In this document: in pieces, positions 33,994 to 43,360 of the stretch
Layout: each line of letters opens with the position of its first letter
Position numbering within the stretch: the first letter of the stretch is position 1
Source of the DNA: Pseudomonas fragi
GTDB lineage: Bacteria > Pseudomonadota > Gammaproteobacteria > Pseudomonadales > Pseudomonadaceae
Assembly (NCBI RefSeq): GCF_900105835.1
Contig: NZ_LT629783.1
Coordinates: 1,612,001-1,676,000 of the forward strand
DNA: 64,000 bases
Direction of reading: 5' to 3'
Made by a program: the position numbers and the translations under genes
The notes under the pieces: model-generated
What the model was told of the DNA's origin: nothing
The model's database searches: none
The model's input: the letters and a program-made list of their open reading frames with translations, nothing else

Positions 33994-35865
33994 TTAGTAG
34001 CGCTCAACCTTGGCTTCGTTTTCCAGCTGCTTGCGGTAGGCAGCAAAATCTTGCTGACCCACACGCGAAGCGAGGAAGCGGCGATACGACGCTTTCTCTT
34101 CTTCAGTCGGCGCTACTGCATCGTTGACACCATTCAAACGCAGCACAACCACAGCGCCATCAGCCAGGGTGACGCTGCCGAAAGTCGGCTTGTCCTTGGC
34201 TGCCGGTTTAGGCATACGGAACACGGCTTGCAGCACGGCAGGATCAATACCTTCCTGGCCACGGGCAACCGCTTCCTGGACCTTCCACGACTGACCATCA
34301 ATCGGCTGGTTCAACGGCAGTTTGCCATCGCGCAGTTCCTTGATGATCTCTTCAGCACGGGTTTTGGCCGCGGCACTGGCGTGCTCCTTGACCAGTTGCG
34401 CACGAATGCTCGAGGCCACAGCCTCCAGCGGCAACTGCTCAGGCTTGCGGTGCTCCTTGACGCGCAATACCACTACGGTCTCAGGGTCCAGCTCCAGCGC
34501 CGTACTGTTAGCACCTTCATCCATCACTTCGGTGCTGAATGCAGCTTGAATCACCGCGCGATTGGCGGTAACACCGTCGCCGCCTTCACGACCAAATGGC
34601 GCAGAGGTGTGCACGGTCAGCTTGAGCTCTTGAGCCGGCTGAGCCAGATCGGACGCTTCAAACGCCGAGTCTTCCAATTGCTTGGTCGCATCGACAAACA
34701 GGCGTTCAACCTGCTGGGTTTTCAGGTCATGGGTCAGCTTGTCTTTCAGGCTGGCAAAGCTCGGCACTTCAGGTGCTTCAACGCCCAGCAGCTTGATCAG
34801 GTGATAACCGAAGCTGGTGCGCACCGGCTCCGACACCTGGTCCTGCTTCAACCCATAAACCGCCGTTTCGAACACAGGGTCGTAAACACCCGGGCCTGCG
34901 AAGCCCAGGTCACCGCCATTGGCAGCCGAGCCCGGATCCTGGGAAAACTCCTTGGCCAGAGCTTCGAAGCTTTCGCCTTTGGCCAGACGCTGCTGAATCT
35001 CGGCGATCCTGGCCTTGGCCTGCTCGTCGCTAACCTTGTCATTCACTTCGATCAGGATATGCGCAGCCCGGCGTTGTTCGGCCAGGTTGGCGATTTCCTT
35101 CTGATACAAGGCTTGCAGCTCATCATCCTTCACGGCTACCTGATCAAAGAAAGAAGATTTCTTCAACTCGATATAGTCGATCACCACCTGATCAGGGGTC
35201 ATGAATTCTTTGGCGTGCTCGTCGTAGTAAGCCTTGATCTCGGCGTCGCTCAGTTTCACCGCAGCCGGGTCGGCCTTGATGTTCAGCGAAGCGAAATCAC
35301 GGGTTTGTTTTTCCAGACGGGCAAACGCATTCACCTGCTCATCGGTCACGAAACCACTGCCCGCCAGACCGGCACGCAGCTGACCAATCAGCATTTCCTC
35401 GCCCAGCATGTTACGGAACTGCAAGCGACCGTAACCCAGTTGACGGATCACCTGGTCGAAACGCTCAGGGCTGAACTTGCCGTCTTCCTGAAATTCAGGG
35501 GTCAACAGAATGACCTGGTCCAAAGCAGCTTCAGAGAACGAAAATTTCGCGTCTTTGGCGCCTTGCAGCAACAGCTTGCGATCAATCAGCCCTTTGAGGG
35601 CCGCTTCACGCAGCATTTTTTCATCCAGCAATGACGAGTCGAAATCCTTGCCCAGTTGCTGCAGCAGCTGACGACGTTGCATGTCGACGGCCTGGCTCAG
35701 TTCAACCTGGGTGATTTCTTCACCGTTAACCTTGGCAGCATCCTGGCTGGTAGAGGTGGCTTGAAAAATGGCATCGAAACCGGTCAACGCCATTAACGCG
35801 ACGATGACACCGATGATGGTCTTGGCAATCCAGCCTTGTGAATTGTCCCTGATATTTTGCAGCAT
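33994..35865 (-). CDS. ppiD: Periplasmic chaperone / peptidyl-prolyl isomerase PpiD
   Basis: 623 aa from the ATG at 35865, with GGGGGAAGC just upstream. An N-terminal membrane anchor (MLQNIRDNSQGWIAKTIIGV) is followed by a SurA_N-like chaperone region (QLGKDFDSSLLDEKMLREAA). A parvulin (rotamase) domain lies in the middle (RRAAHILIEVND, FGYHLIKLLG), with a C-terminal coiled region. PpiD is bound to the SecYEG translocon and helps proteins emerging into the periplasm. It sits beside hupB and lon, as in E. coli, and its control by heat-shock systems elsewhere fits this proteostasis block. Confidence 0.96.
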   Translation of the reverse strand: MLQNIRDNSQGWIAKTIIGVIVALMALTGFDAIFQATSTSQDAAKVNGEEITQVELSQAVDMQRRQLLQQLGKDFDSSLLDEKMLREAALKGLIDRKLLLQGAKDAKFSFSEAALDQVILLTPEFQEDGKFSPERFDQVIRQLGYGRLQFRNMLGEEMLIGQLRAGLAGSGFVTDEQVNAFARLEKQTRDFASLNIKADPAAVKLSDAEIKAYYDEHAKEFMTPDQVVIDYIELKKSSFFDQVAVKDDELQALYQKEIANLAEQRRAAHILIEVNDKVSDEQAKARIAEIQQRLAKGESFEALAKEFSQDPGSAANGGDLGFAGPGVYDPVFETAVYGLKQDQVSEPVRTSFGYHLIKLLGVEAPEVPSFASLKDKLTHDLKTQQVERLFVDATKQLEDSAFEASDLAQPAQELKLTVHTSAPFGREGGDGVTANRAVIQAAFSTEVMDEGANSTALELDPETVVVLRVKEHRKPEQLPLEAVASSIRAQLVKEHASAAAKTRAEEIIKELRDGKLPLNQPIDGQSWKVQEAVARGQEGIDPAVLQAVFRMPKPAAKDKPTFGSVTLADGAVVVLRLNGVNDAVAPTEEEKASYRRFLASRVGQQDFAAYRKQLENEAKVERY

Positions 35866-35927
35866 GCTTCCCCCAGAAACGGTCTTGCATAATGAGCAAC
35901 CGTGGAGCGTGGGTAGAGTCCGGATAG

Positions 35928-35955
35928 AAGAAAGGCGCATCCGAGGATGCGCCTT
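35928..35955 (-). terminator. Terminator after the tRNA-Asp-like gene
   Basis: Perfect 10-bp stem AAGGCGCATC/GATGCGCCTT with loop CTCG (minus strand), followed by TTCTTCT. It starts 9 bases after the CCA end of the tRNA-like gene. Confidence 0.8.
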
Positions 35956-35963
35956 CTCGTAAC

Positions 35964-36040
35964 TGGCGGAGCGGACCGGGCTCGAACCCGCGACCCCCGG
36001 CGTGACACATCGATGTTGCCATCGACTGCACTACCGCTCC
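35964..36040 (-). tRNA. tRNA-Asp-like gene (anticodon GTC), degenerate or remodelled
   Basis: 77 nt with encoded CCA. Acceptor stem GGAGCGG/CCGCTCC is perfect, TGTCACG places GTC at the anticodon position, and the 3' half from there is nearly that of normal tRNA-Asp. Compared from memory with Pseudomonas tRNA-Asp there are 12 changes, ten of them between positions 12 and 32. They destroy the D stem and G19/A21 and weaken the anticodon stem. In exchange the segment GTCGATG-GCAA-CATCGAT can form a seven-pair hairpin with a GNRA loop. The T stem has one mismatch (C63 to G). It is probably a pseudo-tRNA or a tRNA-derived RNA. hupB lies 54 bp upstream, and a terminator follows. Confidence 0.75.
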
Positions 36041-36094
36041 GCTGCCAAGCCTGGCGTGCGCCTGACCCGGTTGGGTAAAAGGTGTTACAGAAAC

Positions 36095-36367
36095 TTAGTT
36101 AACCGCTTCTTTCAGTGCTTTACCGGCTTTGAAGCCTGGTTTTTTGGCAGCAGGAATTTCCAGCGTTTTACCGGTCTGTGGGTTACGACCAATACGAGCA
36201 GGGCGATCGGTTACAGAGAAAGTACCAAAACCAACCAGTACCACAGAGTCGCCAGCCTTAAGAGCGCCAGTGACGGATTCGATTACTGCGTCCAGCGCAC
36301 GGCCAGCTGCAGCTTTCGGGATATCAGCAGATGCAGCGATAGCATCAATCAGTTCCGACTTGTTCAC
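36095..36367 (-). CDS. hupB: DNA-binding protein HU-beta
   Basis: 90-aa histone-like nucleoid protein. N-terminal [20 protein letters not shown], the flexible DNA-binding arm with [20 protein letters not shown] (RNPQTG conserved), and the C-terminal [16 protein letters not shown]. Acts as a dimer in DNA bending and nucleoid compaction. It lies between lon and the tRNA-Asp-like gene with its own 144-bp upstream region. No clear terminator separates it from the tRNA-like gene. Confidence 0.97.
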
Positions 36368-42864: not shown

Positions 42865-42941
42865 TGGGGTGGACGAAGGGGATCGAACCCTCGACAACGG
42901 GAGTCACAATCCCGTGCTCTACCAACTGAGCTACGCCCACC
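42865..42941 (-). tRNA. tRNA-His (GTG), copy 2
   Basis: Minus-strand cloverleaf with acceptor GTGGGCG/CGTCCAC, the extra G at position -1 opposite C73 that marks tRNA-His, anticodon GTG in ATTGTGA, T loop TTCGATC, and encoded CCA at 42865-42867. Sequence identical to the other tRNA-His in the cluster. Last of four tRNAs. Confidence 0.95.
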
Positions 42942-43025
42942 ATAGTGCGCTTACAACCCTGCCCGCTCCTGAAAGCAAACAGTTACAACCAAAGAAAAAG
43001 CCGCTACAAGCGGCCTATCCAAATT

Positions 43026-43110
43026 TGGTGCGGACGGAGAGACTCGAACTCTCACACCTTGCGGCGCTGGAACCTAAATCCAGTGTGTCTACCAATTCCA
43101 CCACATCCGC
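43026..43110 (-). tRNA. tRNA-Leu (TAG)
   Basis: 85-nt class II tRNA. GCGGATG/CGTCCGC acceptor, anticodon TAG in ATTTAGG, long variable arm (GCGCCGCAAGGTGT), T loop TTCGAGT, encoded CCA at 43026-43028. Reads CUN leucine codons. Confidence 0.95.
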
Positions 43111-43166
43111 ATTTCAAACTTCTGAAGCAAAGACGCCAGATTTTTAATCTGGCGGCTTTCTAAATA

Positions 43167-43243
43167 TGGGGTGGACGAAGGGGATCGAACCCTCGACAAC
43201 GGGAGTCACAATCCCGTGCTCTACCAACTGAGCTACGCCCACC
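43167..43243 (-). tRNA. tRNA-His (GTG), copy 1
   Basis: Identical to the tRNA-His at 42865-42941, with G-1 and encoded CCA. The two copies flank the tRNA-Leu and form an operon with tRNA-Arg. Confidence 0.95.
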
Positions 43244-43283
43244 ATATTGCCTGTACTGCTTTACTTGTGCCAAAGCTGCCTAA

Positions 43284-43360
43284 TGGCGCACCCGGCAGGA
43301 CTCGAACCTGCGACCATCCGCTTAGAAGGCGGATGCTCTATCCAGCTGAGCTACGGGCGC
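43284..43360 (-). tRNA. tRNA-Arg (TCT)
   Basis: 77 nt. Acceptor GCGCCCG/CGGGTGC, anticodon TCT in CTTCTAA, T loop TTCGAGT, encoded CCA at 43284-43286. First gene of the tRNA operon; reads AGA/AGG. Confidence 0.95.

Follow-up and report, generated by a model that had tools for sequence, protein, structure and literature searches.

A remodelled tRNA-Asp gene between hupB and ppiD of Pseudomonas as a candidate folded part of the hupB mRNA 3' tail

In mRNA-tRNA dicistronic transcripts, a protein gene and then a tRNA gene lie in one unit, and this is the arrangement that the locus described here, between hupB and ppiD in a stretch of 64,000 nucleotides of Pseudomonas fragi (the window, that is, the whole stretch of DNA analysed), would have had in its ancestral state; unlike in those transcripts, the tRNA of the present-day element (element B) is without a cloverleaf, with its place and stem kept. 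Low-scoring tRNA genes and fragments of prokaryotes are traced, in the passages at hand of van der Gulik et al. (2023, PMC9897764), to mobile-element integration or to a CRISPR spacer or array, and element B is like these fragments in its tRNA-like sequence, its low model score and its liability to be called a tRNA by gene finders; it differs in lying at an ancestral tRNA locus, in keeping both acceptor strands and in the selection that appears to act on its new fold. For strain SBW25, the available part of the account of its tRNA gene set (PMC7661048) gives 67 predicted tRNA genes with one non-canonical member, tRNA-Cys GCA-2, and the two tRNA-Cys copies of this strain flank a genomic island (PMC9897764, same passages). 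That gene is likewise a tRNA-like Pseudomonas gene that does not form a cloverleaf, and it is reported as absent from the mature tRNA pool (PMC7661048), whereas element B has its place between hupB and ppiD and is met with repeatedly across the genus; the available part of the SBW25 account makes no mention of the hupB-ppiD element. A cluster of tRNA genes, Arg(TCT)-His-Leu(TAG)-His, which ARAGORN finds elsewhere in the window (42865-43360, minus strand), matches the argTCT-hisGTG-leuTAG-hisGTG cluster given there for SBW25 (PMC7661048). RaiZ, as described in an excerpt of PMC5391140, resembles the present case in being an RNA made from the 3' end of an mRNA; unlike RaiZ, the hupB 3' structure descends in part from a tRNA gene, and it has no known trans target. 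Literature searches returned no paper that we recognised as describing the hupB-ppiD element, which is no proof that it is unpublished.

Element B and its neighbours lie on the minus strand of the window. Upstream is a coding sequence for an HU family protein (36095-36367, minus; relatives found by protein search), which we take to be hupB, and downstream is a coding sequence (33994-35865, minus; start taken at the ATG at 35865, with the start region used as search anchor) that is presumably ppiD, a name carried over from the earlier note. Element B itself (35964-36040, minus; 77 nt including the CCA) was analysed with ARAGORN, Rfam, alignment and folding. Alignment with the intact tRNA-Asp found at the corresponding place in other Pseudomonas species shows 12 differences in 77 positions (12, 19, 21, 22, 23, 26, 28, 31, 32, 33, 61 and 64); the earlier note, comparing with Pseudomonas tRNA-Asp, had the same number, and its count of ten clustered changes is also right, except that they span positions 12-33 and not 12-32. 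The D arm is broken, as had been claimed (two of four D-stem pairs lost), together with one of five anticodon-stem and one of five T-stem pairs, so that the complete D, anticodon and T stems of a functional tRNA-Asp are not present. The other features read from the sequence by the earlier note are all there: a perfect acceptor stem, in which GGAGCGG (36034-36040, minus) pairs with CCGCTCC (35968-35974, minus; slowly changing in relatives), the GTC anticodon, the CCA (35964-35966, minus) and a new seven-pair hairpin, GTCGATG-GCAA-CATCGAT (36009-36026, minus), seen in the sequence and in folding, most pairs of which are kept in 10 related species.

ARAGORN still calls element B a tRNA-Asp (GTC), and the Rfam tRNA model (RF00005) scores it at 26.9 bits, short of the gathering threshold of 29, whereas intact tRNA-Asp copies reach 70.2-70.5 bits, with 70.2 bits for each of the five normal ones that the same genome has elsewhere. 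The covariance score that the earlier note had named as a check is therefore outside the range of functional tRNAs, and because of this difference from the normal copies of its own genome (and with predicted energies of -13.0 for the cloverleaf vs -38.5 for the new fold, see below) element B is, by these models, not a normal or working tRNA. The element of a close relative (L055) scores 29.8 bits, marginally above the gathering score. Nine other near-relative assemblies (L068, L069 and L071-L077) have the same type of element, which rules out a sequencing error or an oddity of the strain.

Six of the seven pairs of the new hairpin are already available to the intact tRNA-Asp, in place of the D and anticodon arms. 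With ViennaRNA, the energies of which ignore tRNA modification and tertiary contacts, the intact tRNA-Asp as an unmodified sequence has a cloverleaf of -30.2 and an alternative fold of -34.0 kcal/mol, and the window copy a cloverleaf of -13.0 and a new fold of -38.5 kcal/mol; in these folding models the new hairpin strengthens an alternative that is latent in the normal tRNA-Asp. The seventh pair (21-26) was gained through changes on both sides, pair 19-28 was swapped from G-C to A-T with both sides changed, and one G.U became A-U at position 31, at the cost of one G-C that became G.U at position 32. When 12 random substitutions were placed outside the acceptor, all seven pairs were present in 572 of 20000 simulations, because six of them pre-exist in the intact tRNA, and drawing bases at random for the twelve changed positions gave them in 603 of 20000; folds as stable as that of the window copy were obtained in 136 of 4000 and 11 of 4000 simulations, respectively. 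The statement that random decay would rarely build a new perfect hairpin is thus weaker than the earlier note had it, since most of the hairpin was there beforehand; given the latent pairs and the 572 simulations, the window locus alone is just mildly surprising and suggestive, and the comparative evidence has to carry the case.

These simulations and the latent pairs would suit a plain pseudogene, that is, a redundant tRNA-Asp copy that decays unconstrained and forms its hairpin as a chance by-product, and so would the five intact copies elsewhere in the genome and the loss of most tRNA features in many relatives. Among the ten species of the window's own group the new fold persists (97.9% of cells are paired, vs 33-46% when the fold is slid). 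The covariation in this group is not significant (two double-change pairs, matched or exceeded in 278 of 500 shuffles), which is again in line with a pseudogene. We consider this explanation unlikely, because substitutions in the acceptor stem occur at about a third of the rate seen in the unpaired interior, more interior pairs are preserved than under the null and the acceptor shell recurs in many lineages (see below); the first of these points is what the simple pseudogene among the options of the earlier note fails to explain. The loop of the hairpin is GCAA in just five of the ten close relatives of the group, and the GNRA tetraloop was rejected as a conserved docking motif for this reason.

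Of the 398 Pseudomonas genomes searched, 392 yield the locus with the ppiD anchor, and 179 contain a strict pattern (perfect acceptor stem, CCA and the start of the terminator). In all, 306 intervals were extracted, 303 with the hupB stop found and 3 without hupB in the stretch, which correspond to 253 unique intervals. The hupB-ppiD interval measures 156-269 nt in 303 of the 306 loci, and with an acceptance limit of <1200 nt neither an insertion nor a long interval was seen among the 303 in which both genes were found; this rules out an integration scar or a mobile-element remnant of a tRNA, and a recombination product, another option of the earlier note, finds no support either, as the remodelled types differ by lineage (by eye). 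Aligning the interval from related Pseudomonas, which the earlier note had proposed, instead revealed a graded series from an intact tRNA-Asp to bare or new hairpins. An intact tRNA-Asp is present in 14 of the 306 loci (e.g., in P. farris, P. borbori, P. kuykendallii and Pseudomonas sp. GM50 and GM18), or in 8 of the 253 unique intervals (7 in the genus and 1 in the outgroup). The other states, among the loci listed, are an intact acceptor shell with a fast-changing interior (the window and many others), short hairpins (L182, L323 and L319) and new long hairpins (L223 and L233). Of the 253 unique intervals, 22 receive a tRNA call from ARAGORN, namely the 8 intact ones and 14 of 245 remodelled ones; to the latter it assigns Asp (5), Tyr (4), Asn (3), Ala (1) and Thr (1). 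The window element is not a one-off pseudogene but a member of a genus-wide series at the hupB-ppiD interval.

The outgroup consisted of the 30 best-scoring hupB loci of 76 genomes of the order, from which 2 within the genus were removed, leaving 28. When the 420 nt that follow hupB are scanned with ARAGORN, 7 of these 28 loci (L330, L332, L333, L337, L340, L341 and L343) yield a tRNA-Asp, and the copy in the genome and place of L332, scored as L023, reaches 70.5 bits with the Rfam tRNA model; because these outgroup loci keep the gene, an intact tRNA-Asp after hupB is probably the ancestral state. By eye, remodelled tRNA-Asp shells were also seen after hupB outside the genus, in L328 (another genus of the family) and L350 (another family), and the conversion may reach wider than Pseudomonas. 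On a FastTree phylogeny of hupB and the start of ppiD irreversible loss implies 20 maximal remodelled clades (at least 12 once weak branches are collapsed), and 6 state changes are needed if both directions are allowed (with 8 intact tips, 7 of the genus and 1 of the outgroup). The intact tRNA-Asp was thus probably lost about 12-20 times under the first assumption, or changed state 6 times under the second, on a tree built from about 700 nt. Judged by eye, the remodelled types of L009, L013, L017 and L020 seem to have arisen separately, each from the intact form.

The body of the intact copies may have been restored by gene conversion. The second acceptor pair is G-C (GGAGCGG) in the window element and in the intact hupB-linked copies found by the strict pattern (which demands it), vs C-G (GCAGCGG) in all five other tRNA-Asp genes of the same genome (L002, L005), and this difference argues against conversion of the whole gene. 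A link between the number of other tRNA-Asp genes and the loss was not seen among 36 genomes, in which tRNA-Asp matches numbered 4-7 in the 20 with an intact copy at the locus vs 3-7 in the 16 without.

Constraint on the remodelled copies was measured in independent sister pairs of 226 unique intervals, a non-random set (95 were obtained by the terminator pattern, 54 had failed the strict pattern, 30 were best ppiD matches and 47 came from further genomes on a list) from which intervals known solely from an acceptor-bearing query were excluded; 112 of 113 sister pairs were used, base pairs were defined by the fold predicted for just one of the two members, and the null was the substitution spectrum of unpaired sites (3000 simulations). 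Differences per site were lowest in the tail and acceptor stem (32/970 and 66/1595 = 0.041, respectively), intermediate in the paired interior (382/4427 = 0.086) and highest in the unpaired interior (335/2551 = 0.131); by this comparison, the acceptor stem, with roughly one third of the rate of change of the unpaired interior, is under constraint. Among interior pairs changed on one side, 130 of 266 kept the pair (null 89.8, sd 6.5; as high in 0 of 3000 simulations), and the same was found for hairpin A, which follows the hupB stop codon (68 of 122; null 47.4; 0 of 3000); for the acceptor stem the excess is marginal (27 of 49; null 20.4; 95 of 3000). Changes on both sides affected 52 interior pairs, vs 15.7 expected if the sides were independent, and 28 of the 52 still paired (null 21.3; 114 of 3000, marginal). 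An earlier version of the test, with a null taken from paired sites, had given a small excess (hairpin A 65 vs 59.5, interior 194 vs 180.4), with pairing kept once in 17 changed pairs outside A and B; that null was replaced by the one from unpaired sites, and the test was then rerun without the acceptor-query-only intervals. In seven related loci with a new long stem, 5 pairs carry compensated double changes. By sequence comparison, selection acts on the pairing, and not on the interior sequence, of the remodelled copies and of hairpin A. Of the tRNA-derived regulatory RNA that the earlier note had considered, this supports the tRNA descent and a selected fold, given the pairing-preserving changes across the genus.

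In each of the three classes more changes produce G.U than A.C (e.g., interior 96 vs 57 and hairpin A 32 vs 12, in the first order of pairs), which fits an RNA read in the hupB direction; these counts still included acceptor-query loci, and the excess is partly explained by a higher frequency of C-to-T than of G-to-A at unpaired sites. The median folding z-score is -2.73 (252 segments, intact ones included). Hairpin A stands beside a closed B stem in 139 of the 226 remodelled intervals, vs a mean of 25.5 of 226 in ten rounds of shuffling, and the full two-hairpin layout is absent from the best predicted fold in the remaining 87 of 226. Conserved pairing upstream of the terminator, in the hupB direction, was therefore found, as is needed for a structured 3' untranslated element of an mRNA.

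RNase P acts on minimal acceptor hairpins, and the acceptor stem and CCA could have been retained as its substrate, directing a cut of the hupB transcript at the old 5' end of the tRNA, after which hairpin A would protect the new hupB 3' end. By eye, and among the loci listed, the acceptor and CCA seem hardly to vary in a large section of the tree that includes the types of L009, L017 and L020, the 179 genomes with the strict pattern point the same way, and some lineages (L323) have shrunk to an acceptor hairpin with ACCA. Genus-wide, however, the three CCA columns undergo 17 changes each over the tree, as many as their neighbours or more, which weakens a conserved RNase P/CCA signal and speaks against such recognition as the common reason for conservation, and the lineages of L223, L228 and L319 keep the stem without the CCA; we regard retention as an RNase P substrate as quite improbable.

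On the other side of element B lies a terminator-like stem, AAGGCGCATCC/GGATGCGCCTT (35928-35957, minus), recognised from the sequence, with 11 pairs and a T-rich tail; the terminator that the earlier note ascribed to the element is thus visible by eye, but a scan for consensus promoters and terminators listed nothing, this stem included. Its pattern occurs in 252 of the 253 unique intervals, the named loci having been fetched by that pattern. Between element B and the terminator, the unpaired linker GTTACGAG (35956-35963, minus; 2-12 changes per column on the tree) contains some of the most conserved bases of the hupB-ppiD interval, its last two letters having belonged to the fetch pattern for the named loci. 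On the hupB side is hairpin A, CCGGGTCAGGC-GCAC-GCCAGGCTTGG (36045-36070, minus; hupB 3' untranslated region), read from the sequence, the class of which shows the pairing-preserving changes noted above across the genus. Just upstream of the ribosome-binding stretch of ppiD, a hairpin-like inverted repeat (35880-35902, minus) appears as CGGTTG...CAACCG in many relatives and looks, by eye, as if it were kept with changes on both sides; the stretch between this repeat and the terminator is highly conserved and is possibly the ppiD promoter.

If the hupB 3' end were processed into a regulatory RNA that acts in trans by base pairing, this RNA would have a structured 3' part and a terminator, as in known RNAs derived from 3' ends, and the linker GTTACGAG could serve as its seed. 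The loops and interior are hypervariable between relatives, so that a conserved seed is not seen elsewhere in it, tRNA was the one Rfam family matched at E up to 1, and no paper was recognised in the literature searches as describing such an RNA; we think this explanation very unlikely. A more speculative idea, to which we attach hardly any probability, is that the hupB mRNA 3' tail is a ligand of HU, a spent tRNA, with its fold branched from the outset, having been co-opted many times in parallel and feeding back on HU synthesis or holding the mRNA at the nucleoid. It is put forward because HU reads shape and the branched tail keeps its shape while its sequence changes freely: HU recognises bent or branched shapes and not sequence, and is reported to bind nucleoid RNAs (PMC6907758).

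The explanation towards which we lean, with some reserve, is that a dispensable tRNA-Asp gene has been retained as a folded part of the hupB mRNA 3' tail. Comparison of the sequences establishes the conservation of place and stem, the loss of the cloverleaf and the selection on pairing; co-transcription with hupB is what we infer. In the ancestor, hupB would have been followed by a normal tRNA-Asp and a terminator in a single transcript, and the several other identical tRNA-Asp genes in the genome would have made the hupB-linked copy dispensable. In many Pseudomonas lineages the tRNA body, freed of its duty, would then have drifted, while selection retained it as the folded 3' end of the hupB mRNA, with the old acceptor as a long stem that closes one or two hairpins, stem B being placed between hairpin A and the terminator. 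In the window, mutations would have locked the RNA into the alternative fold that is latent in the normal tRNA-Asp, and in lineages with the acceptor stem and CCA cutting by RNase P may persist. The task of the element would be 3'-end protection, processing or protein binding; presumably it provides a compact, nuclease-resistant 3' end of the hupB mRNA that is kept apart from ppiD. Candidate readers of the structure are nucleases, RNase P (in lineages with CCA), ProQ, Hfq and HU itself.

The locus is a warning that elements of this kind can be taken for tRNAs by gene finders, as happened in 14 of 245 remodelled intervals (with five amino acids). For the genus, it provides a dense natural series from a tRNA gene to an apparent structural part of an mRNA, with intact, intermediate and converted forms at a fixed address, and the hairpin latent in the normal tRNA-Asp is a concrete route for the change. 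With many apparently independent conversions, the question of how a redundant RNA gene gains a new role becomes testable.
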